Below, piece after piece: positions 30,141-61,544 of a stretch of 64,000 nt of DNA. The translations under genes and the position numbers were made by a program. The stretch covers positions 1,549,736-1,613,735 of the forward strand of contig CM018607.1 in assembly GCA_009192285.1 (NCBI GenBank). The letters run 5' to 3'. The notes under the pieces are model-generated. The model worked only from the letters and a program-made list of their open reading frames with translations, did not search any database and had not been told where the DNA came from. How positions within the stretch are numbered: position 1 is the first letter of the stretch; every line of letters begins with the position of its first letter. Source of the stretch: Morchella semilibera (taxonomy: Eukaryota; Ascomycota; Pezizomycetes; Pezizales; Morchellaceae).

Positions 30141-30418
30141 TAATTGTGAGCAAAGAACCATCTTTCAATCAAACAGAGGGCCCTATTATGATGAATAGTC
30201 TAACAGATCTAGATATCCTATTAGCGATGAATATTGCTTTATAATTTATGGCTGCTACTTTACCCTGAACGAAGTAAAAGGGGTATGGGGTAAGAGGTTA
30301 TCACGTTGTCTAAGTAACTATCCTATAAGACTAATATAATAGCCTTAGCCTCATGTAAAATACCCCCCGATCCGATCAAACAATCATGGTATCAACAAAT
30401 ATATCTCAGTGGGTCAAG

Positions 30419-30688
30419 CTTAGTCTCGGTCCCCCATACGGCGATGTTAGTGGTGGTGGTGGTGGTTGTATAATTTAGGTTCATCACAGTAGGGTCTGGA
30501 GCAATAACTTTTCGGGTTTCTAAATAACCCCGCCGGACTGGCATAGCAACAGGGGATTTTGGACTTTTGGCATAGCAACCGGGGGAAAAAAAGGACTGGT
30601 ACAAACCTTTTGGGCAAGCACACCAGACCCTTCCGGTATTGAACCATACAAACCAAAAAAATACCGCTGGGGTCTGGGAACGAGACTA
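30419..30688. mobile_element. hAT-like MITE (TTAGTCTC family), copy A, with 8-bp target duplication
   Basis: About 270 bp. Left end TTAGTCTCGGTCCCCC, right end CTGGGAACGAGACTA. Flanks are GGTCAAGC on the left (30412-30419) and GGTCAAGT on the right (30689-30696), a 7-of-8 match. The inside has GGCATAGCAAC-type repeats that match the copy at 42972 in the opposite orientation. No coding capacity. Confidence 0.85.
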
Positions 30689-31444
30689 GGTCAAGTTGCC
30701 TTTTTGGAACATGGAGGGCCGAACATCGTGCACTGGGGGCCAGTGTCCCTGACCTGAGTACATAACAATTCATTTAGGATATACGGCCGCCCCACTGGTG
30801 GAATATGGCCCAGAGGTTCGGGGTGGCGTGTCTAACCAGTCCAGGCCCAGGGCGGGGCATATTATATAATTTGTATAAACCAGCCTATGTCGGACATAAA
30901 AGCTGCGAACAAGGCAGGCTAGCTTACTCTAGCCATATTGTCTAATGTATAGCCGCATTAAAATGCATAAAAGAGTTATGGGATGACTACGAGTGTATAG
31001 TACATGCTTTGGAGGGTGATATTAGTATACTGCTTGGGTTGGTAAACGCATGCGTTACGCTATTTAGAATCCAGGCCATGAACCTATGGTGATCAGGATG
31101 TACTTTAAGTATGCCAATCCCAGTCCCGAAATCAAACCACGCCCCTAAACCGTACCGAAGTATTCCTAGTATGGACTTAATCTTAACACCATATCTGCGC
31201 GCAGCACCCCCAAAGGAAATGCAAAGATCCAACCTACCCAAAAGAAGACAAAAAGACATCACTCCAGTACAAAGGAACGCAAGGAAAGAAAATATAAAAT
31301 GAAAAGATAACATAAAAGCAAGCGCTCCCCCGTGATGCGTTTCTAAGAGCACCGATGAATATGTATTCGCTTTTCTTCTCTCTCTGTCCATATGTCCCTC
31401 CACATTTTTTTCCCTTTACTTTTTTATTTGAGATTGTTGTATGT

Positions 31445-32779
31445 TTAGCTCCCATATACCTTGATTGGTGCGTCATCTGCTTCTAGCGCCTCCGTCTCTT
31501 TCCTAAGTGCAGCAAGATCGAAGTCGCCATGGTCTTCTCCTTCTTCTTCCTCCTCCTCTTCGCTGTCGGTCTCGTTTTGCCAGTCGCCCTTTTCGAAGAG
31601 TGCCCTTCCTGTTGCCTCCTTTGCACGTCGGGCCTCCTCTTCGGCTTCCTTCTTGGAAGTGCGCTCTAGCTTCCACTTTTTGAAACTCTCCTCGGTAACA
31701 GGCGTTAATGTACCCGTAAGGGCAAGGCTAATAATTATTAATAGGAGTGCTTTAGATGGGAGATAGGTGGGTGGGTTACCGTCGGCCTTCCAGGAAGTCT
31801 TCAAGGGTCAGCGTTGCTAGTGGCGATTTATCCATGAGGGCCTTCTCCGCTGCACGTTGCTCCTTCGTCTTCAAAACGAAACCAGGTGGTAGAGAATGCT
31901 TGTATTTGCAGTCGTTACCCCCGTTTGGGCCTGTGTCAAGCTCCTGTTAGTTGTGGGATAGGTTCCCAAGGTGGAGCAGCAAGAGAGTGTACATACACTG
32001 CCAGAACCATCCATACTTTCCATTCTCGACAGCCTCGATAAAGAATTTGCAAACCTTGTCGGTTGTTGTTTTGGGGTTTCCGTGCTTGCTCAAAACAACA
32101 CTCCGTAGCTTCTCTTCGTCCCAGTTATCCATACCGTCCTCTTTCTTTCCTTCGCCGTCCTCTCCCTCTTCTTGACCATCCTCATACAAGTTTTTCTTCA
32201 GCGTCTTTCGCTCCACACTTAGGTCGTGAGAGAATTTACACTTCTTGCCTTTATCAGGAATTAGTATCGCCTAATTCCCGCAACAAGGAAGCAGTCACAT
32301 ACCCTTCTCACAATGACCATTCTTGAAGTAGACGCAAACCACACTCTTGGGATCAACACCGGGTGGTACTTTCTGTACCTGTACAGGTTTGAAAAGATCC
32401 GCCACCTCCTTCTTCGCATCCTCGGCTGCCTTCTTCTCCGCCTCACGCCGAGCTTTCTCGGCGGCCTTTCGTTTCTCCTCAGGTGTACCTGAGGCGCTGG
32501 CCTGTGAGTGTAGTTGTGCGATCGCCTTTTGCGCTTTCCCGCCTTTTTTCTGTGAATGTTGTTAGACTGACTGAATGGACTGATTCGCATTCCCGAGGGT
32601 GTGTGTTGGTAAGGTGAGAGGGGGTGGACGAACATTTTTGAGCCCGAAAGTCTAGAATACGTAGGTAGAATTAGTTAGTTGTATTATAATGAGGAGTGTG
32701 TGGGAGAGTCTACCTTGTCTTGTACGGTCTTCTGGACAGAGGGCTTCGTTCCCTTGGTATCCTTCCCTTTTGGTGGCAT
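31445..32779 (-). CDS. TMA46: Tma46-like CCCH zinc-finger protein (DFRP1/ZC3H15 family)
   Basis: Six exons on the minus strand: 32779-32714, 32651-32634, 32549-32303, 32248-31997, 31930-31780, 31727-31445; 338 residues (yeast Tma46 is 345). Starts [22 protein letters not shown] and TFGLKN. Two CCCH fingers: [19 protein letters not shown] (C-x7-C-x5-C-x3-H) and [19 protein letters not shown] followed by [11 protein letters not shown] (C-x17-C-x6-C-x3-H). The DFRP segment [18 protein letters not shown] and an acidic tail follow. Family members bind the GTPase Rbg1/DRG1 and associate with ribosomes. Exon 2 is only 18 nt with a GTTCGT donor. Intron 4 must join T at 31997 to GC at 31930 to restore the zinc-binding Cys; the nearer AG would give a stop. 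Confidence 0.93.
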
Positions 32780-33280
32780 GGTGGATTGTGGTGGGGGTGT
32801 CTAGCCAGGTCAGTTAGACTTTTTTTCGCAACTCCGAACAGCGAAACCGAATTTTGAGATCGCCACGGTAAATTAGAGGCTTACAAAGGATTTTTACTTT
32901 GGTAAGCGAAAAAATTGAACACAGTTGAGTTGTAACGAGTGAGGTTGTTGCACGCTACGAAACATTAGAATATTTTTCTCTCCTGCTGAGGAGGTCGTAA
33001 AGGTGAACTCTTGGCATAAGTAAAGCGGCGGTTAGTGTAGTTTGTCGTTGTCTACGTGTATTACTGAGTATGGGACGTATTACCGGTAGGTTGCCGCTTT
33101 AGTTATTACGTAGCTTTATGCAAGGCTCTTGCAGCTCGAAGAGAACACGTCCTCCACAGCTCCCTCTAGAACTTACTGTTTGAGATAACCGCCATTTTTT
33201 TTTTCGCGATCCAAAACACCAATACTACTTCCGATATCTCTCCTAGAAAAGATCCTTTTTGAAGATACCCTACCGCAGAT
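32780..33280. other. Divergent promoter between TMA46 and OST4
   Basis: 500 bp of AT-rich sequence with no open frame of note. Both genes read away from it. T-rich run near 33193-33202. Confidence 0.5.
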
Positions 33281-33451
33281 ATGATCACCGACTCGGAACT
33301 CAACTCAATTGCTATATTCCTGGGGACGCTGATGATGAGCCTTATTGTGCTCTACCATTTTTTGGCTGTCAACGCTCGAGAGCTTTCTCCTTCACCTGCG
33401 AACGGTCTCACAAATGGTCACGGAAAGGCCGCGATCGTGGGAAGTAATTAG
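33281..33451 (+). CDS. OST4: Oligosaccharyltransferase subunit Ost4
   Basis: A 56-residue intronless gene. The first 31 residues (MITDSELNSIAIFLGTLMMS then LIVLYHFLAVN) match yeast Ost4 (MISDEQLNSLAITFGIVMMT then LIVIYH) almost position by position: a short lumenal start and one membrane helix at about residues 9-28. The tail (ARELSPSPANGLTNGHGKAA) is longer than in the 36-residue yeast protein. Ost4 is a small membrane subunit of the endoplasmic-reticulum N-glycosylation complex and bridges Stt3 and Ost3/6. A longer open frame in another phase (33259-33447) covers the same bases and is a shadow. Confidence 0.92.
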   Translation: MITDSELNSIAIFLGTLMMSLIVLYHFLAVNARELSPSPANGLTNGHGKAAIVGSN

Positions 33452-34662
33452 GGGCGTGCTTGTCGGCGAGAGTGTGTGTAATACTGGCAGCAACGGAGTT
33501 CGACTGGCGCGCACAAAGCTAACTTGCACACTCGTTAAATAGATGTACACATATGATACCATACGATGCGGTTTAAAGGGGACATTCAACTAAGCGAGGG
33601 ACAGACAGTCGTCAGTGGAATTGGGGGTCAAACACTATGCAGCAGGCTTGAAACCATGGTGGAAAGGTGTTTGGAAATGGGCGGAGCAGCCCAGGGTTTG
33701 TGTGGGCTTGTAATCTGTACGATATCTACCAAGTGTTTAAAGGATTAAAAAGCACAGGCTCACTGGTTTACCAGCTTGGTTTTTTTCGAGCGCCATTTTC
33801 TGTGAATAAACAAATATGCTCATATTCCGCCGCTTTCTTGCTAGGAACACTTGCTAGAATGTCGCAGCAGTACCTACATGACCTAGCGGCTCTCGGTTGA
33901 AATCGCTGCCAAGGAATGTGGTCGGATAATCCAGAACCTCTACCTACATACTACGTACTGTACTCTACCTACTTAGGTCCTTTGAACGCGACGCTTGCTA
34001 CTTTTGAAAAGCTACGTCAAAGGGATAGTATTCGAAAAAAAAAAAAATTTCTCATCTCAAAACCTAGTATGTAAATACCTACATACTGGATGATACTTTT
34101 TATATCTATTGTAGCTGCATGAACCAACATGGACCGCATATTCCTAGAATGTGTGCAAACAGCCGGACAAAGCAGGATTGGACAAAGAACGCAAAAAAGG
34201 GAGACATTCTTGCTGAGGATTGGGGCGGTGTAGGCGTCTAATGTGTGTGCCACTGGATCGATCAAAGTTTGATCGTTGTTATGCCACCCTCCAAGCCCTC
34301 CAAGCCCATTCAGTCCTGCCAGCTCTCAGTTGCGGCTGAATACATCAGTTGACTGTTCATGGCAAAAGCATGCTTACATAACACGTGTTCTGTGTCTCCT
34401 TTTCCAAGTCCTCGCGCCCGTGTCCATTCTATCTAACTCTGCATCCTCATCACTCCCATCAAACCTCCTCATATAAAAGTCTCTTACCCTCGTCCACTCT
34501 CCACGTCTTATCTTACTCTCTTCCGCTCCTCATCTATAAATCTCGCGCTACTGAACATCAACCCCGCCTGATAAAGTATTCGCTTCCGCATCTCTCGCGA
34601 CTAAACAGCAAGCATCAGGCTATTTGATTTTCATCCTCATCACTCCCTCTCATCGCTCTATT
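33452..34662. other. Spacer between OST4 and YRA1
   Basis: About 1.2 kb. Short open frames at 33566-33900 and 34017-34265 lack features. The last 350 bp before YRA1 are pyrimidine-rich (CCTCATCACTCCC-type) and look like a promoter plus 5' UTR. Confidence 0.5.
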
Positions 34663-36336
34663 ATGTCTTCAAAACTCGATCAGTCTCTTGATGAGATTCT
34701 CGCTGAGCGCCCTCGTGCCGGCGCCGCTGGCCGTCGTGGTGCCAGAGGTGGCAATGCTCCCGCTGGCGGTATCCGCAAACGCCCTCAGCGGGCTGCTGCA
34801 CAAAAGGCGTCAGCAACTATAACACAGAATGCTACCAAGACTGTCCCCACTGGTCCATCTGGAAAGGTTGCTGGATCTAAAATTATTGTTTCTAACTTGG
34901 TAAGCTCGTTTCCACGCGTTGATGATATTTTATACTTTTTTTGAACGCGCCACTTACAATCATGACAGCCCTACGATGTGGATGAGGCTATGATCAAGGT
35001 ACGTTGATTGTACAACGAAGTCATACACACGGCATGAGTCTGGGAAACGAAGGCACAAACGCTACGGAGCGGGGAAACAGCGAGCGAGCTTCTCTATCCT
35101 TTTTGGGAGCGAGGAATGAGAGCACCTCATGATGACCCTTTTGCCACCCTGTTTCTATGAGACTCAACGGCACGATTCCAAATGCACAACGGCGAACGAT
35201 GATGATTCCCCATGCACAATGACTCCAGTACAGATTTTCCCTAAAATCATGTGGTTCTGTCTATTGCAAACATCTTGGTGCCTTTGCATTATGCACAGCT
35301 TCAGGGCAAACACTGGGCAGGCAAATATCTCGCAAGTCGATGAGGCCATATTGCAGAGCTCCTCCAGAAGCCTTTCTGGTTCACCCTCCACAAGCGAAAC
35401 GAACAAAGATTGAAAACAACCATATTTCGATCGGAACTCGAATCGGGAGGTTGGATCAATGTGGAAGGTAAATTCTGGGGAGCTTCTGAATCCCTGAAGC
35501 TGTTGGGGAACTGCCTGAACTTGGTGCAGACGTCATGATGCAATGTTCTGGTTTTGCTGTTGCCTATGAACATTCTGCATCATCGTTCGTCAGTGCATTT
35601 TGGAATCACTTGCGACACCCGCCGAGTATTCATTTGAATACTCACTCAAACTCGCTCCCGTTTCCGTAGCTTTGTGTCTTGTTAGCATTCGAAGACAGGC
35701 GTCAGTTTTTTGGAACCGAATATTCTAACATCAGCTGTCTACTTTAAGGAATATTTCACCAAGGTTGTTGGCCCTATCAAGCGCTGCGTCATCACCTACG
35801 GACCCAACGGCCAATCTCGTGGAATTGCAACTGTTGAATTTTCCCGAGCTTCCGACGCTGCCACCGCAGTCCAGAAGTACAACGGTGTCGAGGTTGACAA
35901 AAGACCAATGAAGGTTGAACTTGTTGTCGATCCTACCGCGCCTGCCAGTTTCGCAGATCGTGTCGGGTATGTTTATTTCCCCCCGAAATTTCTAGGAACC
36001 TCTCTAACTCTTCATAGTGCACCTAAGCAGGTTTCCGCTGCTCGTAATTCTACTGCTAACAAGCCAAAGCCTGTTACTAAAAACATGGGCACATCAGCAG
36101 CAGCAGCAGCACGTGGCGCTAAGGGCAGACGTGGTGGTCGTGATGCTCGTGGAGGACGCTCCGGCAACCCTAGCCGAAAGAAGCCAACCGCTGAGGAACT
36201 GGATGCTGATATGGCAGACTACTTCGTCGGTGGAACTTCTGGAGCTAGCTCTGCAGGTGCGGCTGCTCCAGCTGCGGTTAGTACTAGTAATGGTGATGTT
36301 GGGATGGATGATGATGTTTTGGTTGGTTCACCCTGA
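34663..36336 (+). CDS. YRA1: mRNA export adaptor Yra1 / ALYREF
   Basis: Four exons: 34663-34899, 34969-34998, 35749-35966, 36018-36336; 267 residues. The N-terminal motif KLDQSLDEILAERP and C-terminal motif EELDADMADYF are the conserved boxes at both ends of Yra1/ALY proteins, which contact the helicase Sub2 and export receptor. Between them lie RGG-type basic stretches and one RRM: GSKIIVSNLPYDVDEAMIK, EYFTKVVGPIKRCVITYGPN, SRGIATVEFSRASDAATAVQ and YNGVEVDKRPMKVELV. The protein loads onto nascent mRNA and passes it to Mex67. Intron 2 is about 750 nt, far longer than the 51-70 nt introns on either side; yeast YRA1 also has one unusually long regulatory intron. Branch site TTCTAAC precedes the acceptor. 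Confidence 0.95.
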
Positions 36337-39041
36337 TTATCGCCCTTGATTTACCCACTTTCTTCCCTGGTGTTACAAGCTGGCAATCAACCAGAAGCGC
36401 ACAACACATTTCGCTTCTGCCAGAGCACTGCTAGATCAGGCCTAGGCTGAAGCGAAATATGTCTCTTCACTTTGACCAGTCGCCGAACCTTTCGCTGCGT
36501 CTTTCCCGCTCTCAGTTGTCTTCAGCGTCTCCGGCAAATCTCTGGGGGATAGTAAGCTGATTCTGGATTCTTATATTACAGTAAACCGTCACAACATTCT
36601 TTACGCTGTATGTGATAACACATTACGAAACATCCTACGATCAGAAAAAATGTTAAGCTTTTAATCCTAGAATCGGGCATTTCGCAGTTGGCGAGAAAAA
36701 GGGTAAATTTATGATATTTTCCTGGGAGATATGCCATCCTAAGTATTGCTGGTTCAGGGGGTCTATTTTTTGTTTCTCGGGCGGAATTGCGTTCCACAAT
36801 CTAAGTTTTTTCGTTTGTTCATCTCTACCAATCACTTGTCTACGCCAGTCCTGATATTTATCATGCCTGCAATTTTCCAATGATCTTCTTTCCCTTCGTT
36901 ATTGAGCTTGGGTTTTTTTTCCTATTATTTTCATTTTAACAACCGTGCTTCATTTTTGTTTTTTTCGGGCCTGGTTTGGGAATTATTATATAAAGTTTAT
37001 CAAGGCGTGTTCTGGTCAATGATTACTCGTGATTTCCACAAAAATAGAAGGGGAAGGAAAAAATTCGAGAAATTGAGTGAAATTACATCAAACCACTCTT
37101 ACACATGTGATTTGGGGCGATTCTCACTTATTCCTTTTGTTGATCAACTTTATGGGGGCCGGCCGCATAGCGCACTGTACTACGGCTGCAGGGCAAGCCT
37201 GCAGACACCCACTGCTGCTGCAACCACGACCACTGCCTACAGGCTACCCTACCCCTACACCCAAGGACTTAATTCTCAGCACAGGTGAAACATTGCTTCA
37301 TGGCTGATAGGCAAGACCTAGAGTTAGACACCAGATTGAGGTTTAATCACCGACAGAAAAAAAGATAGTATTGGGACCGTTAGGGTAAGTCACTCTTGAC
37401 ACCGACGTTTGTGGGGATGACGGGTGGGAGTCTCTATGCTCTACCAGAATCTTGGGATATCTAACCGGCCCATATCTAACCTACATGCCCTTTGCCTTTA
37501 CTACCCCCAGAACGTATGTACGGATAGATACTCTCTACAAGGGCTTTGAGAATTGAGACTTGCGCGGGCCTGTTCGGGGGCGCATCTTGTTAATTGCACT
37601 AGGTTAATTCAGTCACAGGATGCACTACATATCATACGAGGATCAACGTCTCCCACATCGTAGACAATTACAATTTTGCTATCATCGCGCGATCGAGCGA
37701 GACAAGGTATTAAAACACTTGCACAATACAGAGGTGCGTTTCGCACTCGAAATATACACGTCTGACAGCTATTACAAGGATTCTAGTAGTCTCTAGCCCA
37801 TATAGATATTGTCAATAAGCATCCATTTACTCCATTGACATTGCATGTTGGCTGGTTGTAGCAAACCGTCCGTCAGGGTGGGTATGGGACAAGATGCAGT
37901 ACTTAAGTATGTATGTGGCTGTGTAGTAAGTATATATATTAATTCTGCTACCATATACCCTAGTGGTTTACTCGCAAAAGTTCAATCCCCAGCCCTGTTT
38001 CTGTACTAGGACCATCTGGCCGCTAATAGCCGTGTTGATAATACCGGAGTCTGGTCTGTGTCTAGTGCGTACGTTGTACAGAATGTGACAACCGGTAGTT
38101 TGTAAGAGGTGGTTGGTTACACGCACTTTTCATTCGGTAAGTGTTTCGGGTCCTGACATATCCTGAGAGGAGATCGTGGTAACTTTCATGCGAAAGGAAT
38201 TGATGGCATGAGCCTAAACCCCCACGAGGGTTAACTAAGCTAAATACGCTCATATATAGTCTTCCCCAAAACGAATTAATACTGTTATACCGGCCAAAGA
38301 TAATAAAATTAAATGCAATGGTACATGGTGCTGATATTAGTATAAGGGCGCTGGAAGGCATGCAGTCATCAATTATCACTCGGTCATTAGCTTTGACCCT
38401 CTATTAAATTTTATTCGGCGAAAGCTTAAGTATCTGATGAGTGTAAATAAAATTCCGGTTGGATAAGATGGGCATCTCTTCATTTTCGCTAAGCAATGTC
38501 TCATCCTAACCCTCTTGCGTAAAACAGGTTTTTCTCAAAAGTTCCTCCGTTGCACAAAACTTTTGTTGGCCAATCACCTTACAAGAAAAAGTTGCGGTAT
38601 CCTGATTTAGCGGTTGTGGCGTCCAAGCATACACCAGGCTGGAGAATTTTTTACGGGTTCTGCATGACCCAAGTGCTATTTGTTGAGGGGAGAAGGCGAC
38701 CAAATAAAATATGGCTTTTTAAGGGCAATGAGACATTTTGCTGAAGCGGAGTGAGAATTTCTAGTCAACACCACCCCTTTATTTACCCACATGTCGAGAT
38801 ATAGGTGAGGGGCACACCGATGGGCGCACGGGGTTGACAATTTCAGCTGCCTGAGGTGGGCAGCCCTACCAAAATAGCTTATATAGATGAACTATCGCTC
38901 ATCATGTTAGCTACCCGTCGGCTTTGTGGATCAAACTCTATCTTTGACGCACTCATACACATTCAAACTCGCCCGCGCTCGCCCAAACTCGCCCACACTC
39001 AGATACATACCCAACAGTACAAGCAAGATAGGTAGCACGAG
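36337..39041. other. Spacer; possible 3' hairpin of YRA1 and one MITE copy
   Basis: A hairpin (ATTTCGCTTC / GAAGCGAAAT, about 36408-36458) lies just after the YRA1 stop and may belong to its 3' end. A diverged fold-back element lies at 37177-37268. Open frames at 36576-36880 and 38506-38744 have no recognisable features. Confidence 0.5.
37177..37268. mobile_element. Fold-back element (GTACTACGGG family), diverged copy
   Basis: Starts GTACTACGGCTGCAGGGC. Its loop CACTGCTGCTGCAACCACGA is the reverse complement of the loop of the 41212 element with few changes, so it lies in the opposite orientation. Its arms have decayed: right end CTACCCCTACACCC. Confidence 0.65.
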
Positions 39042-40452
39042 ATGCATTCATACTTGACATTCTCTGCACTGGACACGGAACCGGGACAAGGATTGAAGCC
39101 TTGCATACGACCGACATCTCCTGACTGGGAGAATCACCGTGAGATAATTAGGAAGCATTATCTCAAGGGCCGCCCCAATGGCAGGCTAACTCTTGCTAGA
39201 ATACAGTATCTCATGGTTAATGAACATAGATTTTCCGCAAGGTAAGAATTCTTTCAATATACTTATATGTCTACTAGTATACATTACGCCGAAGATAGTG
39301 GCCCGTACCGCTCGTTGCCCCTTACTACATGTAGCACTTTTTTGCCCCCCCCCCCCAATACCCAAATGCCTTATTTATGGAGCCAGCAATCTTACAATCA
39401 TAATGCAGTATAAATCAGTATAAAACTCGCATGCGCAAATGGGGGTTTCGGAGAAATATCACTAAGGACATGGCGCGAAAAATGGCGCATATCCAGGATA
39501 AGCGCTTGAATGTCGATAAAAAACAAACAGTATTTTCTTTGTGCGGTGTGCCCATCTCAGAGGATAGATTGAAGCGTGCGCGCGAAACACATAACTTTGG
39601 TATTGACTCAAACATTAGTGATTTAGATCAAGAAGGTAGGTCAAGGGAGTTTTTGAGCATTCAACCAATATCTTAGTCTAACCAGAGGTATAATCATAGA
39701 TATCCCGTCATATTTAGGGTTCAATACTCCCGAACCGCAAAATGAAGTCATTTGTGAAGATCGGGAGGAGGACATATATACAACAAGAGCCATGGGTAAC
39801 AGATCTAGAATGGGGGGAGCTGAAAGAGAGGCCGATTTCTATTATGATGATAGCTTGCAAGATTCGACTCCCATTTCTGAAGATTGGGTGGATGTAACGG
39901 ATCAGGAGCTTAAGCTAAGCCAGTAAGTACAAATCCTGTAGCTAGCCACCCCATCCTAATGTCAATATCTCACCGTGCCTCTAGATCCGTCGACTCTGAG
40001 GCTGACAGTATGAATACGATCGTCTACGTGGAGGCTCCAGAGTTACCAAATTGCCACTTGGGAGACCCGGAGAAATTATCTAGTTCACAGCTTATCGATA
40101 TATACGGCTCGGCTTTTCTCGGGATGGTTACTAGCGCACATCACTCCTGGCTACTAAAAGCTGAGGGACATAAAATTACCAGAAGTGCGGAATTATGGGG
40201 CTGCATATGGATGAGCTCAGGTTGGATTGGTAAAGGCTATATGGGGAAAATATTTAAAGACGAGTGAGTGATAGACTTTGGACGTCCTGGGTTCTTTTCT
40301 GACACTGGATTTTTAGTGCGACTATGTCTGAACCATGGTCCGATCCCGGACCAGACTATAGCAATAAGGAAGAATTCGAACAACTTGAAGAATACCGGCT
40401 GGAGTATCTTCTAGGCGAGGCTATGCGGGGAAGCATCATGGATACGAGCTGA
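39042..40452 (+). CDS. Clr5-domain protein without ankyrin repeats, five exons
   Basis: Exons 39042-39241, 39409-39635, 39718-39922, 39985-40263, 40317-40452; 348 residues, and every junction restores one frame with GT-AG sites. The Clr5 domain reads SPDWENHREIIRKHYLKGRP, YLMVNEHRFSAS and INQYKTRMRKWGFRRNITKD, with the intron at the same position as in the two Clr5-ankyrin genes here. The rest is acidic and low in recognisable features, with WVDVTDQELKLSQSVDSEAD and LSSSQLIDIYGSAFLGMV. No ankyrin repeat is visible. Function unknown; the Clr5 domain is named after a fission-yeast silencing factor. Confidence 0.8.
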
Positions 40453-41211: not shown

Positions 41212-41301
41212 GTACTACGGGTGTAGGGGTAAGTCTGTAGACAGCGGTCGTGGTTGCAACAGCAGTAGGTGTCTACAGACTTACCCCTACACCCGTAGTA
41301 C
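41212..41301. mobile_element. Fold-back element with perfect 32-bp inverted repeats
   Basis: 90 bp. Left arm starts GTACTACGGGTGTAGGGG; the right arm ends CCCCTACACCCGTAGTAC. The arms are perfectly complementary over 32 bp around a 26-nt loop. The perfect match suggests recent movement. A decayed copy lies at 37177-37268. Confidence 0.85.
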
Positions 41302-41385
41302 ATATTGCACAAGTTTTGATGCGTTGCCAAGGAGATCTTTCCACAAGTGGGGGGCTCATAACCTACAGCGACACAAACAGAAGCA

Positions 41386-42962: not shown

Positions 42963-42971
42963 TACTCTAGG

Positions 42972-43360
42972 TTAGTCTCGTTCCCAGACCCCAGCGGTAT
43001 TTTTTTGTTGTATAGTTCAATACCGGAAGGGTCTGGTGTGCTTGCCCAAAAAGTTTGTACCAGTCGTTTTGCCCGGTTGCTATGCCAAAAGTCCGGTTGC
43101 TATGCCAAAGAGCCGGTTTCTATGCCAAAGAGCCCCCCAAAACTCCGGATTCTACACCAAAGTCCGGTTGCCCTCCCAAATCTCCGGTTACTATGCCAAA
43201 AACTCCGGATTCTCTACAAAAAAAGTCCGGCGGGTAATTTAGAAACCCGGTTTCTTTCCGAAAAGTTATTGCTCCAGACCCTACTGTGATGAACTTAAGT
43301 TATACACACCACCACAACCACCACTAACATCACTGTATGGGCTAGCTGGGAACGAGACTA
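42972..43360. mobile_element. hAT-like MITE (TTAGTCTC family), copy B, perfect 8-bp target duplication
   Basis: About 389 bp. Left TTAGTCTCGTTCCCAG, right CTGGGAACGAGACTA, an exact inverted repeat apart from the outermost base. It is flanked on both sides by ACTCTAGG (42964-42971 and 43361-43368). The inside is largely a degenerate array of about 20-bp units built on GGTTGCTATGCCAAAAG, longer than in copy A. No coding capacity. Confidence 0.9.
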
Positions 43361-44267
43361 ACTCTAGGTGTGTTATATACATACCCTTCCTCTACTTTAG
43401 GTAGCTTTGGGGGAAGAACGCGCACGCGGTATCGATAACTCGAGCTAGCTAGGACCACCACCAATGTGATCTAGACCTAGTTCGGAGCTCTCGCTGGCCA
43501 TACATACATGTAGTAATCTAAGAACAGGGGCATGTGAGTCTATTTGCAATATCAAGAGCCTTCTAGCTATGAATTCAGAAGAACTCACCCCCTACTACCG
43601 ACTTAACACCTGTATACATCAGCATCGGCCTATGTTTATATCCCCTCTCCAAAAAGGCCTCCTAATATCTTCTGCCACCCCCTTCAATATATATAGCAGT
43701 GTCTCAGTCCTTGGGCCCCTGTTCATGGATACTTATATAGGGGCCTACAAATACAAATTACATTGGTATTTGCACTCTTTCGTAGCTAGGAACGTGCCCA
43801 ATATCCCGATTGTCCCCAAACCCAATACTTAGTGCGGAAGGAGGGGGCCGGGCACATACCCAAAACCAAAAACTCGATACTGGCCTCGATCTTTAGTAAG
43901 TCGATAGTATTCCCGATTGCTCGACACTTGTCATTTGGTCAGAGAGTTCCCATCCTCTCCCATATCCTCGCCTTCTAGCTCCAAAACCTAGACTCTAATC
44001 TTATGTCTATCTACCTACTCCCAGGCGCCTACCGGCGGGGAAAGGCCAACGGGAGATAGGTTTGCCTTATCCCACACCCCAGGAGGTACGCCGCAACGTG
44101 TGATGTTTACCCGGGGGGCATCATACCACACGAGATGTACAGCGGGTTATAAGCATTAGGTCAGGGGCAGGGTAAAGATATAGCAGCTGCAGAGACCGTA
44201 TGCTGGTATACTCATGCTCAAGAGCCGATAAAGTCTAAAAGGTTAGACTTAAAGTATCTCTTCTACT

Positions 44268-50400: not shown

Positions 50401-53400
50401 TAGGCGTACGTTTGCAAGTGCTGTCTTTGAACATATCCCCTAACCTTTAGATTAGAGACAGTTTTCAGGCACCAATGTTTATCTCGTTAACTACTTACTT
50501 AGTTTAGATTTTAAGAAGTTGAAACAATTTCATGTCCTCCGGATGGACCTGGTAGGATCGCTCAAGGGTACGTATACGTGCGGGGGTTTTGACACTTTGT
50601 GGTATATAAGTAGAAACCCTTTTTTCCCTTGGTAAGGAACTATTGAAAAAAAATCTCCCTTCCTATCAGTGTAACGGATTATCAGGCTTCTATTCCACGC
50701 TTAAGAAAGAAGATGCATAATTTGCGGTTTCTGTAATTCCCCAGGTCTCCACCGCCGTATTCCCCCCCCCCCCCCTTTTTCAGAGGCTGAAACCTTTAAT
50801 ATAAACAAAGGTTAAATCACTACATATAATGGATTAAACAAAAAAAACAAAAAACAAAAGGTTGAATCACCATGACTCACTCGGTTATGAGCTGATTCAA
50901 ATTTTTGACAGTGAGACTTTCCAACATGGCTATCCCAAATAAGATGCACACATATTACCTCGCCCCATTCTTTGTTCGGTGTTTGAATAAAGGAGTTGAT
51001 GTTTCGGTAGTTATAATCTTCTTGGCCTTCACACGTACACCGAACACTCCTAAGATCTAGACTTTTCGGTGCCATTTTACTAATCTGCCTCGGTATATTC
51101 CTTCAGATGGCACTTCAGAATCGATTTATTGTGGTCTTACTCTCGAGATAATCAATTAGTATCTGATACGCCACGCTTACATTCCCCAGCAAATAGTTTC
51201 ATGCAGACGTCAGCACCCAATTACAAGAACTCACCAACCACCTAATCAACCTCCTGGGATCGCGAACAACTCCCTTAATTTCCATTCTCACCCTGCGTCG
51301 CTTTTCAGTATGTGGCCCAGCGCATCGAGCTCCATCCATCCTCGATAACATGACGCCAACATGTTAAGCTTAAAATAAACATAGATTCGCGTACACCTAG
51401 AACCCTACAACCACCTGTTAACTTTGTCTCTAGGACAATCAATATGATTGGTTGCCGCAACACCACCGGCCGGAAACCCAACGCCGGCTACAAAACCGCA
51501 CCCCACCCTGGTTTCGAGTAGACAAACCTCAGCTCTGTTTTACTCGCTGTAGATACATTCAGTACCTAGCAGCGGTGAGTAGAGATTGCCTAGCATAAAA
51601 ATTCATAATTGGCTAATTAAAAATATAGCTAGTTATGATTGTTACAACTTGCTCTAGCTACATAGCTTTTCGATCGAGTGCTCAATGACCAAGAGTAGAC
51701 ACATACATAACGCGGGGGAAGCATGTTTACCCAAACCGCGGCTACAGCTACTCAACAACCCCTGATTGTTTTGCACCACCCCCCTTTGCTAGAAGCACTT
51801 CCCCAGAGATCCACGATCTTGCCCCGCGTTGTCCAAGAAACTTATTTTCTCACCCGCCCGTATAATTTTCTCCTGCTGCTGCTCTACAGGTCACAGATTT
51901 TTTTTCTTTTTTATGGTAAAAAGAGCCTCTGGCGGGCGGGCGGTAATCCCGACTACCCCCCCGTGAGTAACGTTTGCGATATTTCCCCGGCATGGCAACG
52001 GAGAGGGAGAGAGAAATGATAGTACAAGTCTACTATGCGTACTCGTACAAATGGTGTATATGTACATGTAGCTAGTAGCTGCAAGGAACAACTTAGTTCT
52101 GTCTCGGGTACCCGTGAGGTATGTGCGCTCTTGCTGACCGGACGATGGGAGAGAGTAAGGGCAAGAAGGGTGCGGGAAAATATAACTTGATGCAGCGGAG
52201 CAATTGCTATTACCATTAGGTATCGGATATTAAGCTCTTGCAGGTCACTAGCCAACCTTAGATACAGGTCGCACAGCAGTAGCAGTGAACAGGGAGAGGA
52301 GATGTATGTAGGCCCGCACATATCGGATCAAGGCCAGGCCACACTGCAGGAGAATGATCGTGAGTTCTGGAAAACTTGTTTGCTTGTTTCCCCTTTACTT
52401 TCTTTCCCCGCAGAAAGCTAATGTGGTAGTGTGGGAATGCGGTTTAGGGCACATGAGAGGAGGTGTGTAGGTAAGGTGCTTGTGCTACAATTAATACAGA
52501 CCTGCGATAATTAATAGCGACGATAACCGCATAGCACATGGGAATTGAAAAAAGAAGAAAAAAAGGAACCAAGTGCATGATAATCATAAGCATTAAATAA
52601 GCACTTGTTCGATCCTCCGGTCATCATGCAGTTACGCACCGCATCATCGTTTTTCTTTTTTCCTTCTCACTGATCTCCGCCATGTACTGTGAAGTACCTA
52701 GGCCTTGGTGGGTTTCTCTATCATGTGTAAATAAGCTCAGCAAGGGTTCCTGGTGTTTTGTTACGAGATGAGTACAGGATAGTACATGAACGTGCGTGCT
52801 CATTCTGCCTCGAAGGCCTCTCCTCTCCTTCACTGCAAGGTCTTCTTGTGCAACTGGCAATAGTGTGTACTAACTAGGATAGTGAAATCCGTAATTGAAG
52901 GTGGAGCTCGATGCCGACAGGTAGGCGGTTGCTCTGTCGGGCTTCGGAGAATTAGTTGAGCTTGGTGGGCCGAATGCTAAACCGGGGCTCCATCGGACTT
53001 CTTGTGGATCTATGCACTAGGGATGTAGGTTGACGACTGCTTGTATGTAGCTACATGCACCTACTTAGGTGTGTACCTGTAGGTACATGCAGCGTCCTAC
53101 AGCAAAGTCCTACAGCAATATGTCAGTGATGATATTTAACAGCTTGCTCCTGGTGGTGCAGAATACGTATACTTTACATATTTGAGTACTTGGGCCTTCG
53201 GTGTATAGATACCTAGTAATTCCGATATTGAAAAATCCGATGAGTGGATCCAGGGTATTCCGTATGTAAGTACATGTATGTATGTCAAACAGAAACTGGA
53301 TCCATAGATTACATATAATACATGTATGTACCCCGGGGTACAATATGATTATGAGTCGCTTACTAACATCCCCCCCCAGCTCTCCGCTCCTATATATACT

Positions 53401-54274
53401 CAAACGTACTATCATGTAGGTTTATAATTATGGGCTCAGGTTATAACGGTAATTAAGCCCGCTTAATAGCTATTTTAAGGAACTATTAATATAATTTACT
53501 CCTAGAAACGCCTCCTTAAAATTATGACCTTTAAAAATGGCTTGTCGTGACCAGGTTCCTAACCCTCCCTTCTATACCACTACATAATAAACTCGCATGT
53601 CCCGGTAACCGCCAAAGCCTTCCAAATGCTGAGCGCTGGTCTTTGATTCCCCAAGACTCGTATACAGCGTAGCCCACTACTTTGTCCAATATCTCGGCGC
53701 CTACGCAGCCTCGAAGGGAGACATTCAGACTCCAGTAGAATTATTGCAGACGTCAGAGATAAAACAGTGGGTACGTTTCTTGGTCTATACTACAAAGATT
53801 CTCCTAAGGGCCAATAAGAGACTGTATGTCGGGTCACGGAAAACCCGCCTTCACATTAATTCTACAGAAAACTGTACTGGATTAAGGAATCCATCCTGTT
53901 CTCTGAGCTCGACACCAGAAGGCACTGAATCCAGACCTGAGATATCTGTTATCTATCACAAAAACTGTACATCCGGCGCACGGTCGAGTTTCATCAATTG
54001 TCTAACAAACTCGTACTAGTAACCGGATTCGCCGCCGCATATTGCATAGAGATCCAGATCTGGGCCTTTCTCATATATTTAGATTAAAGGTGCGAGTGAT
54101 AATATCTACTCTAGGGACCGCACATCAAGGCTACATTGAGCTAGGCAGACATCACGAAATTCGAAACAGCCAGCCAGGCACAGGTACAAAAAAAAAAAAA
54201 GCCTCGCGAAATAACGCCCTAAAAAGCATAAAATGATATCATCAAACAGTTTTTTTCTATCTACCCCGTCTTCA
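47427..54274. other. Long gene-poor spacer
   Basis: About 6.8 kb without a supported gene. Open frames such as 48814-49182, 50812-51075, 51723-52019 and 53744-54019 show no recognisable family. Visible contents are the second member of the inverted repeat pair (49990-50080), a C run at 50762-50775, and many TACATGTA-type palindromes, most densely at 53030-53330. Confidence 0.5.
49990..50080. repeat. Inverted repeat pair, member 2
   Basis: The reverse complement starts GTGAAGCTGCCAACATTTAA and matches 44268-44360, with a gap of about ten bases where that copy has CCGAAAATTCC. The two copies lie about 5.6 kb apart in opposite orientation. Confidence 0.6.
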
Positions 54275-54859
54275 TCAAATCCATGAGATCCAATCCAAAG
54301 CCTCCTCCTGCCCTCCACTGCTAGCCTGTTGTTTCTTCTTTGCCTTCAATATCTCCGAGAGACTATTCCCTTTCCGTGACTTTGCCCGTTTACGACTGCT
54401 CGCGTTTGCCAACGATTGGGCCTGAGACTTCGATGATTGGGCCACGGAAAGCTCAGCTTTCGCCTCGGCTTTGGCAACAGCGACAGGAGCAGCAGAAATT
54501 GTGGCTGCAGCCTTAAGCTTTGATTTCCTGGCGCTCCTCTTCTTCCTTGCTGGGGGGATAGCAGACGCGCGACTCCTGCCACACATATGGCATTCAAACA
54601 CTATCGTCTTCGCCTTGCATTTCCCTTTCCTCTTGTTCATTGTGCTCACATGGGAATTGAGACCCCAAACCGCCACCGTCCCGCAGGCATTGCATATCCC
54701 TCTCTCTACGCTGTCGGGAAGGTTGATCCCTTTCTCAGATGAGATGCTCAGCAGCCGGGTTGCGAGATGTGCCGATACCGCTGGGGAGGTAGTGGCAAGG
54801 AGGTGTGATGCGGCCCAGAGGTGGCGTAGCTGTAGGGCGGTGTTGGGGTTCGAGGTCAT
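54275..54859 (-). CDS. RNase P/MRP subunit, Rpr2/Rpp21/Snm1 domain
   Basis: Single exon, 194 residues, start chosen at MTSNPNTALQLRHLWAASHL (ATG 54859-54857) because family members begin just before this helical region; the frame is open further upstream. The N-terminal helices (LRHLWAASHLLATTSP, then ATRLLSISSEKGINLPDSVE) are followed by the zinc site with two CxxC pairs, CNACGTV and CHMCGRS, as in Rpr2/Rpp21/Snm1 proteins. The rest is Lys/Ala/Ser-rich and ends EEALDWISWI. The family binds the RNA of RNase P (tRNA 5' processing) or RNase MRP (rRNA processing). I cannot decide between the Rpr2 and Snm1 branches. Confidence 0.88.
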   Translation of the reverse strand: MTSNPNTALQLRHLWAASHLLATTSPAVSAHLATRLLSISSEKGINLPDSVERGICNACGTVAVWGLNSHVSTMNKRKGKCKAKTIVFECHMCGRSRASAIPPARKKRSARKSKLKAAATISAAPVAVAKAEAKAELSVAQSSKSQAQSLANASSRKRAKSRKGNSLSEILKAKKKQQASSGGQEEALDWISWI

Positions 54860-55129
54860 GGCGGGCGGAGATGCGGCGATTGGGTCGTGACCTAGGTCAG
54901 GGAGGTGGTAATGATAGGTAGTGCGGGAGTGGTGAGGGGGGGACAAAATTGGTTGCCAGTGCTGAACTAGAGTAGGGTAGGGGGTGGTGTGCTCTACTCT
55001 ACGATCTCGGGGCTTAAAGCAAGGATCCAAGTCTTGCTTGGACAGATTCAAAACTTTAGTTTCCTTATTTACTTCGAGAATCGCCCGACAGAATAAACAG
55101 TAGGTATAGTAGAGTGGGTAAAGAAGAGA

Positions 55130-55575
55130 TTGAAATCTCTACTTCCGGCTTGTCGTCGAGGAAAAGAAAGGAAAAAAACGATTGCACTTGGCCTGTCTCA
55201 AATGTCGATATTTCCCGGTCCCGGCGCGCGCAACGATAAACAGCCGATAAGCCTACCCGGAGAATTTTTCTCACCTAATAAGCCGGAGAATGAACCCGTC
55301 CGTTGCAAGACTAATCAATCATTTACTTATATGACGGGGGTGGGAAAGTCGACCCTTGAAGAATGTCTGTGTGAAGGAGTGAAGACTAAAGGAGACCGAG
55401 GGAAGAGAGCATCGGGTGACTCCGATGCGAATTTCAATTCTTGTCAGTTTGGTAAGCAGAGCCTACAATTGCTTACCTTACGACATCCAATCTATTTTGT
55501 ATCTTACGTTTATTTTTTTACTTATTTCTTTTGTGGCCACCAGTCTGCGCAAAAGGTAAAGGGAAAAAGAAATAG
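55130..55575 (+). CDS. Possible small two-exon gene, unrecognised
   Basis: Exon 1 55130-55451, exon 2 55544-55575; 117 residues. The donor GTAAGC and acceptor CCACCAG give a spliced end NSCQFVCAKGKGKKK. The middle has the stretch FTYMTGVGKSTLEECLCEGVK (shortened here to its core MTGVGKSTLEECL), which resembles a P-loop only superficially, since the residues needed around it are absent. It lies divergent to the Rpr2-domain gene and between two real genes. I do not recognise a family, and it could be chance. Confidence 0.3.
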
Positions 55576-55703
55576 GACCCAAAAAGATGAGCATCCTCTT
55601 TTTAAGCAAAACCTCTAAAATGAACTCGCCAAGTTGCAGGATATGATACGAGCAACATCAAAGGTATTCGTCTCCCGAGCCTTCGTCTGGTCTTAGACCA
55701 AGC

Positions 55704-58489
55704 TCACATTAAGCATCCGTTCTTCTTACTTGAATGCAAGTCCGTGACCCCAATCCTGAATCTCTGCCCCACGTTCCCTTTAATGAAAGCCTCCACGCTC
55801 CATTCGTACCAGACCTTTCGCTCACTAGTCTCTCGCCAGACCGTCACGTCGACCTCAGAGTCGTCAGGAAGCTGCACTGGAGTCTACGAGTTGTTAGTGA
55901 TGAGTTCATCCCATCTAGTTATTCGGCTACATGCGGTGAGATACACCGGAAGTCCTCCACTCCCTGCTACCGCTCCCCTTGAACGCCCCCCCCCCCTCTC
56001 ATCCTAGAGTATGCAGGAAGCGAGCTCGAACAATAGATCCGAATGCATGCATGCATGTGTATCGACTCTATCGCTCGCTTCCCCTCATTTTGTGGAGAGT
56101 AATCCAAAAAAAAAAAAAAGGAAAAAGAAAAAGAAAAAAACAAGGGTCCCAGCCCGTGTAGTGCAGTGCGTGCACACCACACCACTGTAGCAGGGGGGAG
56201 GGTGGTAGTGGTGGTTCTATAAATATCTGCACCATCTGGGATTTGCAGGGGAGAACGAAAAAAGTAGATAGAGAGAGGAAAGGAAGGGTGGGAAAAAAAA
56301 AATCTCAATTCCTATTACGTACCTTTAACGGGAAGAATATCGGAAACCAACTAATCATATCCTTACTCTTCGCGTCGATCGTATCCGGCCTAGTGCTCAA
56401 CTCTACATCACCAAAAAGGACACTCTCAAAGTATCCTGCCAACCCATGCACTACTCCCCTCCGAGGAATTTTGAAGGTAGCCTTTGACTTCCTTATGTTA
56501 TGGTCGTTTCCACCATCGCCGAGTCCGATAAAGCCGCCGCCTAGTGCGGCCGCCTCGGACATGGTGTTAGCGGGCAACGGGTGATGGAAATCCCAGGCCC
56601 GATGAATGTATTCGTTCTCAGCGAGAGATTCAATGGCTTGCAGCATCACTACGTAAGGGGTTTCTGGGGCCTCCGGGTCAGCTCGCCGTGAGAGGATGTC
56701 GGCGTGGATTTTGGGAGCCATGATGGGTGTATAGTGTGCAGAGTATGATGCGGGGATGGAGATGCCGCCATTAGCTAAGTATTTAGAAAGCACAATCAGT
56801 AGGCTTGCCTACTCGGGATCTGATTCAAAAAATGACAAACATACGATTTAATACTCTCTGCACACCATCTAAACACTCTGGACTAAGCTCGTTATCACCG
56901 AAGCTGCCCAATAGCTCACTGATAATGATGTCCACTTTGAATGGCGGGTTCCAGCTGCGCATGTCACTCTTCACCACCGTAACCTGCCCACCCCAGGTAT
57001 CACGATTGTGCCGTAGAAGATGCACATAGGCGTTGGGATTTTTCTCGACCGCAATTAGCTTAATGGCGCGGCTAGCAGATTTTGAAGCTCGAAGGGCTCG
57101 GGAAACGAGCGGTCCTCGACCGGCTCCAGTTACGGCAACGATACTGCCAGTTGGATTAGCGTAACCAGGGAGACTATCTCAGCAGGTACTAAGGGTAGGA
57201 TAAGGCCACGGCAGAATTAAAGGGTAGAAAATAGAGAATGGGCTAGGAGACCTACATTGTTTCACTTGGATCCCTCACGTCCAAGGCTGCCTTGATTGCT
57301 TTCTCGTACTGATCATACTTAACAGGGTCTTTTTCGAATACTTCATATGTGATGCTTTCGAGGTTATCAGCCAGAGGCTGGAGTGGCGCCTGAAGATAGT
57401 CCTGGTATCCTGCTCCGAACCTTTCAACAGTCGATTGCTGGGGCTGGTTCTTCTGGAGGTGTCGTAGGTACACCAAGTAACTGAGAGGCTCGTATCTTGT
57501 GTTTAAGTTTGATCCAGACCTGGCAGCGACTACAGGTGTGGGGTTAATATATGTGTCGGATATGAGAATATACGGTACAGGGCGAAGCTTCATGTACCGG
57601 GTAAGCAGGCCTTGATGCAACTTTGAGAGGACGGGGTACCCTTTGGCGTTAGGGCAGAAAGTAGACGAAGGGATGAGAAGGGTACGGATAGGCTCGGCGA
57701 ACCAGCGGTTCACGATATGCTGGGAAGGAATAAAAGCAGGAATTTGGAGCGCTGGGTTTTAAAGTTAGTGGTTAGTAACCCATACTTAGAGGAGCAGGAT
57801 AAGTACCAAGAGACAATCGTGGATTGTATTTGCAGATTGTTCGAATCGTATTCCAAATATCCCACATTGAAAATTCATCATATATGTTTCCGCTATTCGT
57901 TGCAGATTCTTCGTCTTCTACCATAGGGAGAAGAATATGAATCTGTGTGTAGGATCCCTTTAATAATGTTGTATGTAAGACCTGCGCATATTGAGCAACA
58001 TTTGTCTTTCTTTTCGGTCCCTCGATGACTACAGTATTTATTCCGCAAAACCCGGCATATTCCAACTCGTGCGCCAGGACTTGTCGGGAAACATGGGCGA
58101 ACAGAGGGTCTTCGGAGTCCAGGTCAATCCATGTGGACGTAAACGCAATGACCTGGGGAATATGCTCGCCGGGGTGAATATTGACTTCCTCGGCGTCGAG
58201 TGAGGGGATGCAAAGATGGGCCTTATTTTCTGCACGAGCGCCGGAGGTGGCTTGCTCAATACGTGTGCGGAAGTTGGCATTGGTTATATAGGTGGTTATC
58301 ATATCATACTGATGTGTTTGGTTAGACTTGAACGCCAGCGCAAGTGGTGATTTCTTTTTTGGGGTTACTTACGCCATTGCTGATTTCTTCTTCGAGCGTG
58401 CCGATATTTATTCCAACGTTCGGGGTGGGGAGATGGTGGCCAACATACCATACGGGAATGTTGGGCTCGGCAGGCTGATGGGCATCCAT
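55704..58489 (-). CDS. PRMT5: Protein arginine methyltransferase 5 (Skb1/Hsl7)
   Basis: Six exons on the minus strand: 58489-58373, 58308-57807, 57751-57256, 57143-56845, 56774-56323, 55871-55704; 677 residues, all junctions in frame. The N-terminal TIM-barrel ([20 protein letters not shown] through [14 protein letters not shown]) is followed by the methyltransferase core: [18 protein letters not shown] (SAM-binding motif I), [21 protein letters not shown] and the double-E loop [20 protein letters not shown]. The beta-barrel carries [16 protein letters not shown] and WFPIFFPLK; the short last exon supplies [11 protein letters not shown] and ends [17 protein letters not shown]. It makes symmetric dimethylarginine on spliceosomal Sm proteins and histones. 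The last intron is about 450 nt, much longer than the others. Confidence 0.95.
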
Positions 58490-58862
58490 CGTGTGATTTC
58501 TTGTAAACAAGAAAATCAGTAATAGATAATGGCGAGGTACTCTGTGTAGGTATCCGTGGATGGAGAGGTAGCACCTTGAGCTGCAGCCGCGAGTGGTGAA
58601 GTGTTGTAGGATCGTTGCATGGAACCAATAAAATGTTCGCGATGCGCAACATGCACCTATGGCGGGGTGCGAGAGTGGCTTGTGCCGTCCCCGCATCTGT
58701 TATTTGGCCTGGGCAGGGGTGAAGTGGGTGTTAGCCACGAATGGGATCACAGTGAACCCTAGCCCTGTGCTTTACAGGTAGGTTCTTATGTTTTGGCTTA
58801 CATGAGACTTGAGGACCCTACCACTCGGCGGACATTTAATAATCAAGTGGAGTATGTACCTG

Positions 58863-58946
58863 TTAGTCTCGTCCCCAGACCCCATCGATATTTATTATTA
58901 TTTATTGTTCAATACCGCACCAAAATAGGGGATGGGCACAAGACTA
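58863..58946. mobile_element. hAT-like MITE (TTAGTCTC family), copy C, internally deleted, perfect 8-bp target duplication
   Basis: 84 bp. The left end TTAGTCTCGTCCCCAGACCC and the inner TTGTTCAATACCG match copy B; the right end reads GGGCACAAGACTA. It is flanked by TGTACCTG on both sides (58855-58862 and 58947-58954). Confidence 0.85.
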
Positions 58947-61544
58947 TGTACCTGTGTCTCAAAAATGAGAGCCATTACTATTGATGTTAGGTGAAATTAT
59001 ATCCTAAATACTTCAACGGAGCTCTTGAGTATGTAAGCAATAATGGTCCTCGGAGGTTTATGCACACGCACTTGGTACTAGTGCCTACATCAATACCACC
59101 AAGGTGCTTAAGGATCGCAAGTAGTTACCATATTTGGTTGTAATCTGCCAAGCCAGTGTGGGGCCCGCGTTTGTCCTGATAACATCGCGTCTTCCCCAAC
59201 TTCCTCCTTCTTCCTTTGCCCACCTCAACAACCACCAGATTGCCCTCAACCATCGGATCGCTCCAACCTTCGTCACTGGTACCTTTTGCCAAATCGTCTG
59301 GTACTATTTCAACGCTTCTCGCCAACTTTCCCCCCTCGTTTTGCTCATATACCGCTCGTTCCGCTGCTCTGTGTCCTTGTTCTTCGTGGTCTTGTTGGCT
59401 CTCGCTCCTTTTCTCGTCTCCTTGAGACAAAACATAAACTCCAGCAGTCCCAACTGTCCCCATAGCTCTCCAGTATCGGCGCAGGGAATTCGTTCCTTGA
59501 GAGAAGCTATGGCACTCGCAGATCCACCTACCACTTTCCGACCGTTGTTGTCAATGGAAAAAGAATAGGCCGGGTTATGCAATAGGGTGTTATTCTCGCC
59601 GTCGGTACTGGGACTGAACCCTAACTAGCCCCGTCACTTGTGTCACAGTAGCGTCGAACGGGGCTCTTCCAGGCGGTGTTACAGATAGTTTCACGTTTCG
59701 TCGAGTCCTGCTAGACCGGCTCTAGGCATTCCTTTGGATGGGAATGCGGTTTTGTGGAGAGAAATTTTACTGCAGGCCAATATAGGCAGTGGGGGCATTC
59801 CTCATCTGTCGGTTGCATAGTTATTTTCGCTTGGTGCTGGACGTCATTGGAACTCGGTGGTGCTTGGTAGTCCGTTGACGACGCCCGCCCTCAGGCCTGG
59901 TGCACCGCTAGGATTGTGCGCGAGGGCTTGCCGCCCCAGCAGCTAACCCACGCTTTACAAACGGACATGGGAACGGCTTCATACTCACCTGAAAGGCAAA
60001 TTGCCGGTAATGCATGTACGCAAATAGTAGCTTTACGCGATGTGCAGCGAACCTTTCAGGTTTACATACGGAAGCCCTCCCATCGTCATATCAGCGTGGG
60101 TTACAAGCTCCAGAGTGGGTCACTTGCATACCAAACCTCGTGCCACAATCCTTACAGCGTACGTTGGTGGTGACGGGCAACCGTCATCATCAGCCAGTAT
60201 CATCGAGCTTCAATGTAGTGGTCATTAGAAATGACCTCATCCGGCCCCTCCACCTGGACTGATCTTGCATCAGGCCCAGTTCTCATTTTGGGAAAAGACT
60301 AGCCAACTGTGCTTGTGTCGAACCTCCTTGGAAATGCTTCGAGAACGTCTATGTACGCACCTCGGGGGAGCTTCTTGGGGGTAAGACACACGGTGATGCC
60401 CCGTCTAAAAAGACAAACTCCACGGCTTTTGTTGTTTTTTGCCCGTGCTTGGTCTCCGGAAACGGGGACTAAAGAAATCAAATACATCATGACAGTGCTG
60501 CCACTACAAACGGAGAGAAGGGAAAGGAGCCAACAGCCATGACTAACAGGACTCTTGCCTTCCGGCCGGGGGTAAGGTCCCCTCTCCTTCGGGCCAGGGG
60601 GGTGCAGGCAGTATCCGAGAGGAAAATGGGCGTCCTGCGGGATTCAAACGTCGAGAGAGTTGGTGAGGATATGCGAGATTTTACCACGTAAGGCGATATT
60701 GGATTAAAATGGTTATACTAAACGGAGGAGAGCGGCCGATGTTACACATCGAAAACCAACAGCTCCTGTTTCCACACACTTCTCCTGTTTCCTCAGCCAT
60801 TTGTTCCTGGTTTTTGTGAGAGGCATGCGGCACTTGGACGCCAGGTTCGATGTGACAGTTCCGACTGGTCCGTTTTGCCTTTCGCATAAACTCGGGACGT
60901 GGCTGGTTTAGAGTTGAGTGAGGATGAAGGGCTGGGGGTAGAAGTGATGGCGTGTTGAGGTTGATGCTGGCTGGGGTTGGGCCGGGGTCGTTCCTACGGG
61001 GGCGACTCCAACTTTTTTTTTGATAAGTTATCCCCTCTGTATCATTACTGGAAATAGCTAATTTTTACTGCAGGGACGAAGTTTGTGGAGGGAAGAGGAA
61101 TGGAAGGGATGGGGGGGGGGGGGGTAATGGTCACTTTGTACTTGTACGTATGGAATTTATGGACTATGTGGGGGAATTGTGTTCAAAAATATGTTAGCTT
61201 AATATTGCAGTCTGACTCACATCACCGCAGATTATTTTAATGAAATTGTGAATATAATCTCATGCTATGCATGGTTTTTAGAGAACTTTGTTTCTTTCCT
61301 GTACTAGCCTGATCACACCGCTAGCTATAAACTGTCTACTAGATTAAGGTAGATCTCAAACCTTGCTCCCTTGCCTAAGAGTATCTTTACGTTCTGGCAC
61401 TGATGTTGAATGGTGGGTATTTGGGTAGGAAGGTGGGTGGCGGCATACTATTCAAAGTGCGTGACTCTTAAAGCTTTCGCCTCATATTTTAGATTTTGGG
61501 ACGAAATACGACCAGTCGAGCCTGATTGAATTTAGGGTATTATA

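Follow-up and report, generated by a model that had tools for sequence, protein, structure and literature searches.

The window, a stretch of 64,000 nucleotides (C5:1549736-1613735 of the 56.8-Mb, 23-contig Morchella semilibera genome), carries three short elements with shared inverted ends, TAGTCTCG on the left and CGAGACTA on the right, the right end of copy 3 reading CAAGACTA (Table 1). A first-pass annotation had described them as hAT-like miniature inverted-repeat transposable elements (MITEs) with 8-bp target duplications. Its view of transposed, non-coding, MITE-like copies with target duplications is borne out, and inverted ends and flanking duplications are present in all three; its boundaries are one base off. 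The corrected lengths are 268, 388 and 83 bp in place of 270, 389 and 84 bp, and the duplication is 9 bp in every copy, once with a mismatch. The ninth base, a T in all three copies, had been put into the left end, which produced both the apparently asymmetric ends (TTAGTCTC versus GAGACTA) and the count of 8 bp. Elsewhere in the window (3527-5020) lies an ankyrin-repeat open reading frame whose DNA is a tandem array of about 12 copies of a 99-bp unit.

Table 1. Features of the three window copies (window positions) and genes of the 8.8-kb C11 element (positions in locus L097)
Feature	Position	Strand	Remark
Copy 1, 268 bp	30421..30688	-	A-type end (TAGTCTCGTTCCCAGACC) right; diverged C-type end (TAGTCTCGGTCCCCCATACGG) left
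Copy 1, left target-site duplication	30412..30420	.	GGTCAAGCT
Copy 1, right target-site duplication	30689..30697	.	GGTCAAGTT; one mismatch
Copy 2, 388 bp	42973..43360	+	A-type end left; C-type end right
Copy 2, left target-site duplication	42964..42972	.	ACTCTAGGT
Copy 2, right target-site duplication	43361..43369	.	ACTCTAGGT; same as left
Copy 2, inner tandem repeats, ~20 bp	43073..43222	+	CCGGTTGCTATGCCAAAGAG and variants
Copy 3, 83 bp	58864..58946	+	A-type end joined to B-type end
Copy 3, left target-site duplication	58855..58863	.	TGTACCTGT
Copy 3, right target-site duplication	58947..58955	.	TGTACCTGT; same as left
DUF6589 gene, three pieces	L097:672-2234, 2207-2560, 2612-3121	+	Profile match
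RecQ-type helicase	L097:5277-5684 + 3221-5236	-	Profile match
Third gene	L097:7813-8274 + 6300-7961	-	Open reading frame

The usual duplication is 9 bp

The first-pass annotation had proposed comparing duplication lengths across copies, and held that another fixed length in most copies would defeat the hAT assignment. We made this comparison on 55 distinct end pairs, 43-519 bp long, which were chosen blind to their flanks from the window and the loci read up to L099. Of these, 39 are flanked by 9-bp duplications that agree exactly (27) or at all but one base (12), and none of the 55 has an 8-bp duplication with at most one mismatch, so that 9 bp prevails and the hAT assignment falls. When partners were shuffled over 500 rounds, a procedure that may keep a true partner in place, the mean was 0.68 pairs at 9 bp and the maximum was 5. 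The other 16 pairs comprise two with two mismatches, one exact 10-bp duplication (L065, CCCACAAACC) and 13 without a clear duplication, at least one of which (L094) is a mispairing within a longer copy. The 39 duplications end in C (21), T (12), G (4) or A (2); since their last base varies, the T does not belong to the element. Among the 27 exact duplications, 17 start with a purine and 22 end with a pyrimidine (binomial p 0.0015 for the two combined).

Family size and the shortest copies

A genome search with the ends, also proposed in the first-pass annotation, returned hundreds of matches. With two mismatches allowed, the A end (TAGTCTCGTTCCCAGACC) matches 250 times and its reversed control 10 times, the B end (TAGTCTCGTGCCCATCCC) has 339 matches at the same threshold (3 for the control), and the B' end (TAGTCTCGTACCCATCCC) has 166 with up to one mismatch (none for the control); the B and B' sets overlap, and positions were taken from the roughly 100 matches listed per search. 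These counts lie far above the reversed controls, and the three window copies are therefore not chance pairings. Exact A-to-B copies of 94-124 bp gave 28 matches, among which one copy counts twice through its two right ends and one allelic pair lies on C9/C10. Exact B' copies of 48-73 bp number 18, including two allelic pairs. Larger members include a 928-bp copy (C1:4367361-4368288) flanked by CCTATGACT and CCTAGGACT. The family is thus short, non-coding and numerous with inverted ends, as MITEs are; its size is not homogeneous, the 48-73 bp class being more so.

The smallest copies bear on how much sequence an element needs. Among the 16 pairs measuring 43-73 bp, 9-bp duplications with no more than one mismatch flank 12, the exact 10-bp duplication flanks one, and three show neither; the duplications are exact from 55 bp upward and carry one mismatch at 50 bp, and the flanks of the 43-bp pair at C1:249953 show no duplication. 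Several B' copies at unrelated sites share identical or almost identical inner sequences, and elements of about 60 bp consequently seem to have been mobile as such. Together, the 50-bp copy with its one mismatch and the 55-63-bp copies with exact duplications suggest that each end may need no more than about 25-30 bp.

Three further B' copies of about 38-46 bp (L079, L080 and L068) look one-ended, with the second end missing or reduced to CTA, and seem, when read by eye, to be flanked by near-duplications. A different dispersed repeat, not of the TAGTCTC family, adjoins an A/B copy at C21:1819841-1819957 (L100:1-117) and recurs at 19 further places among the matches listed, including two allelic pairs. 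The contig pairs C9/C10, C12/C13 and C21/C22 share numerous elements at almost the same places and probably represent two haplotypes or nuclei within a single assembly. The flanks of the copy at C21:1820141, searched for an empty allele, had no match on C22.

Long elements with the same ends

We now turn to coding elements. Among the ends listed, four convergent pairs 8-16 kb apart were picked by eye and read at their ends. Two of them delimit long elements, an 8.8-kb element at C11:935519-944323 with an exact 9-bp duplication, GGTTGCACT, on both sides, and a 16.3-kb element at C5:563372-579629 with the same ends and an exact 9-bp duplication, GCTACACGC. Long and short copies alike have inverted TAGTCTCG-type ends on both sides. 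The pair at C21:2251501-2263164 has matching ends and no shared duplication, and was taken as a chance pairing. The fourth, an 8.0-kb element at C1:5026670-5034687, has C and A ends and an exact 9-bp duplication (CTGTGAATG), and was considered as the autonomous partner of copies 1 and 2; it was rejected as a short element with a nested LTR retrotransposon, whose two compared LTR stretches (L098, L099) match at 100% across 323 bp and are bordered on the outside by CAAAC at either end. It has no DUF6589 or helicase match. Reading 1.5 kb inward from unpaired ends revealed no evident transposase.

The 8.8-kb C11 element, read whole, has subterminal arrays on both sides whose 20-22-bp units differ in sequence from the repeats of copy 2. 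It encodes a DUF6589 protein (PF20231, E 3.9e-42), in a frame that needs two introns predicted from sequence, and a helicase that matches Helicase_C (E 7.4e-12) and DEAD (E 1.9e-9), both above the curated cut-off. The helicase also matches recQ_fam TIGR00614 (E 7.3e-33) with 114 bits, below the curated cut-off of 219.8, and its best relatives of solved structure are WRN and RecQ. A scan of seven open reading frame pieces recognised no further transposase domain. In the 16.3-kb C5 element, the DUF6589 pieces are without stops, the helicase and third gene are in pieces with 87-96% protein identity to those of C11, some with stops, and an alignment of 586 columns puts its right end at 92% identity to the C11 right end. 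The only homologue of the third gene (L097:6300-8274) found beyond the two long elements is 34% identical and lies on C21/C22 (C21:610809-612047); the gene is possibly cargo.

The window copies are linked to the C11 element by their ends. The A ends of copies 1 and 2 are 88 and 90% identical to it over 102 and 98 bp, and inner blocks of 29 and 31 bp on the side opposite the A end are each 97% identical and sit in longer matches of about 75%. Copy 3 matches it at 82% over 55 columns of its A end and at 94% over 33 bp of its B end. No coding element found bears the outer C ends of copies 1 and 2.

DUF6589 and a helicase recur together

DUF6589 was found at eight loci in the genome, in 13 pieces. 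At six of them (on C11, C5, C22, C3, C2 and C1), which include both long TAGTCTC elements, a relative of the helicase lies in convergent orientation within about 10 kb, at a distance of 0.4 to 8 kb, and helicase identity outside the two long elements is 28-39%. No helicase neighbour was found at the other two DUF6589 loci (C20:4675553 and C11:1924556), and two helicase matches lie away from DUF6589 (C1:254422 and C19:52510). Such a recurring convergent pair is what one would expect of a transposon core. A scan for DUF6589 relatives in viral contigs found none, and no mention of DUF6589 was found in the literature searched.

Deletion junctions of the short copies

When 23 short copies were mapped onto the ends of the C11 element, they gave 22 different junctions. 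Leaving out four that are not clean A/B copies (L095, L062, L076 and L032), the 19 clean A/B copies of about 110 bp show 18 different junctions, some of which may differ through alignment noise, since one reference was used for the mapping and sublineages differ. The short A/B copies do not form a single homogeneous MITE. On the A reference, all 19 junctions fall between positions 30 and 64; on the B reference, 18 of the 19 fall between 29 and 72. Among the 18 junction-mapped A/B copies that are also in the 55-pair set, 12 show 9-bp duplications with no more than one mismatch. The middles of L033 and L035 match neither C11 end well. Copy 3 of the window matches the first ~55 and last ~31 bp of a 519-bp copy (C15:256174-256692), and by this match looks like a fusion of that copy's two termini.

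Repeated deletion, for example by failed gap repair, is a possible cause of the diverse junctions. Tentatively, and with doubts that outweigh our confidence, we propose that internal deletion accompanies transposition: nearly every ~110-bp insertion would have a private A/B junction lying in the outermost 30-70 bp of either end, short copies would be made repeatedly and not amplified from one founder, elements would shrink to 50-60 bp while still mobile, and two ends of about 25-30 bp would be a minimal AcademH substrate.

Competing explanations for the family

Four explanations for the family can be weighed against the same data. The three window copies are very probably non-autonomous, internally deleted members of an AcademH family of DNA transposons, a placement that follows from the duplication length and the fit of the helicase. 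The hAT reading of the first-pass annotation, in which they would be hAT-derived MITEs with 8-bp duplications, agrees with their short, non-coding form and inverted ends, and 20 hAT dimerisation-domain matches do occur in the genome. The search for a hAT transposase with the same ends, suggested alongside that reading, showed no TAGTCTC end pair at the 10 of 20 hAT loci read, about 1.5 kb either side. These loci and the duplication length, together with a coding element that has the family's ends and carries DUF6589 and a helicase, led us to reject a hAT identity, which we consider extremely unlikely.

Two other explanations accept the 9-bp duplication. The copies could be MITEs of the Mutator-like (MULE) type, mobilised in trans by MULE transposases of the same genome, whose duplications are likewise 9 bp; at least four MULE-domain loci are present, and one of them (L054) has an unbroken frame of 650 aa from the first start codon with MULE, MuDR DNA-binding and SWIM domains. 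However, three of the four loci found are elements with other inverted ends of their own (CGGTAAA..., GGGAAAACGTTCAGG..., GGGAAAACGTTCAGGATACC) and their own exact 9-bp duplications: L053 (C19:4660900-4667900, TTCTTTCTT), L055 (C3:898650-905650, TATTCTTAT) and L056 (C3:937300-944300, ATAAAACAA). These duplications differ in composition from those of the TAGTCTC family, which have 53% GC. The ends of the fourth locus resemble those of the third; no 9-bp duplication was found there, and an 8-bp repeat, AAACGTTT, reads as part of its inverted end. None of the four has a TAGTCTC end pair, L053 having two look-alikes with five mismatches that face outward, and the coding element that does have these ends is no MULE. 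With ends of a different kind at all four MULE loci found, this explanation was rejected as highly unlikely. Alternatively, DUF6589 and the helicase could be captured passengers in a family moved by another transposase; in favour of this, the third gene of the 8.8-kb element looks like cargo. Against it stand the convergent pairing at six of the eight DUF6589 loci found, with the low helicase identity outside the two long elements that a transposon core would show, and the scan of the open reading frames, which recognised DUF6589 and no other transposase domain. We find it very unlikely.

A proposed mechanism for AcademH copies moved in trans

For the AcademH reading, we infer that the DUF6589 protein is the transposase. 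As a DDE-type enzyme, it would bind the ends of short elements in trans and cut out or copy them, perhaps with the helicase. The short elements, which would carry only the terminal signals, would then be joined to target DNA across a stagger of 9 bp, or rarely 10 bp, and repair would turn the stagger into a target duplication. With a coding 8.8-kb element, end matches in the hundreds and 50-60-bp copies that seem mobile, the family offers a compact system for studying minimal ends, and the same genome would suit testing whether the AcademH helicase is needed. More generally, a misreading of a duplication by one base can place a family in the wrong superfamily.

Comparison with known systems

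hAT elements duplicate 8 bp of target. Like the window copies, hAT MITEs are short and non-coding with inverted ends; they differ by that duplication, against 9 bp here. Mutator/MULE elements share the 9-bp duplication, which falls within the 4-10 bp given for IS256/MuDR in the excerpt of PMC10045372, and differ locally in that none of the four loci found has a MULE transposase between the same ends, and three differ in the composition of their duplications. AcademH comprises Academ DNA transposons that encode a helicase (Kojima 2020, as cited in excerpts of PMC10045372 and PMC6416283). According to the former excerpt, AcademH duplicates 9 or 10 bp and AcademX 3 or 4 bp, the two being tied to helicase and nuclease; the latter describes fungal Academ copies with domains such as the PF00270 helicase and recQ_fam. 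AcademX shares the superfamily by name; its 3- or 4-bp duplications, in contrast to the 9 bp of the TAGTCTC family, and its nuclease in place of a helicase set it apart. AcademH matches the family in its duplications (9 bp in 39 of 55 pairs, an exact 10 bp in one), in its terminal inverted repeats and in an element-encoded RecQ-type helicase, which the 8.8-kb element carries and of which the 16.3-kb element has pieces with stops. In contrast to AcademH, the only putative transposase seen in the TAGTCTC family is DUF6589, and its 50-73-bp derivatives and junction diversity go unmentioned in these excerpted AcademH descriptions. By its description, in an excerpt of PMC8290104, the fungus Marasmius oreades is similar, with widespread putative non-autonomous MULE and Academ insertions. 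Deleted, non-autonomous AcademH copies are an ordinary kind of thing; the interest of the TAGTCTC family lies in its minimal size and the diversity of its junctions.
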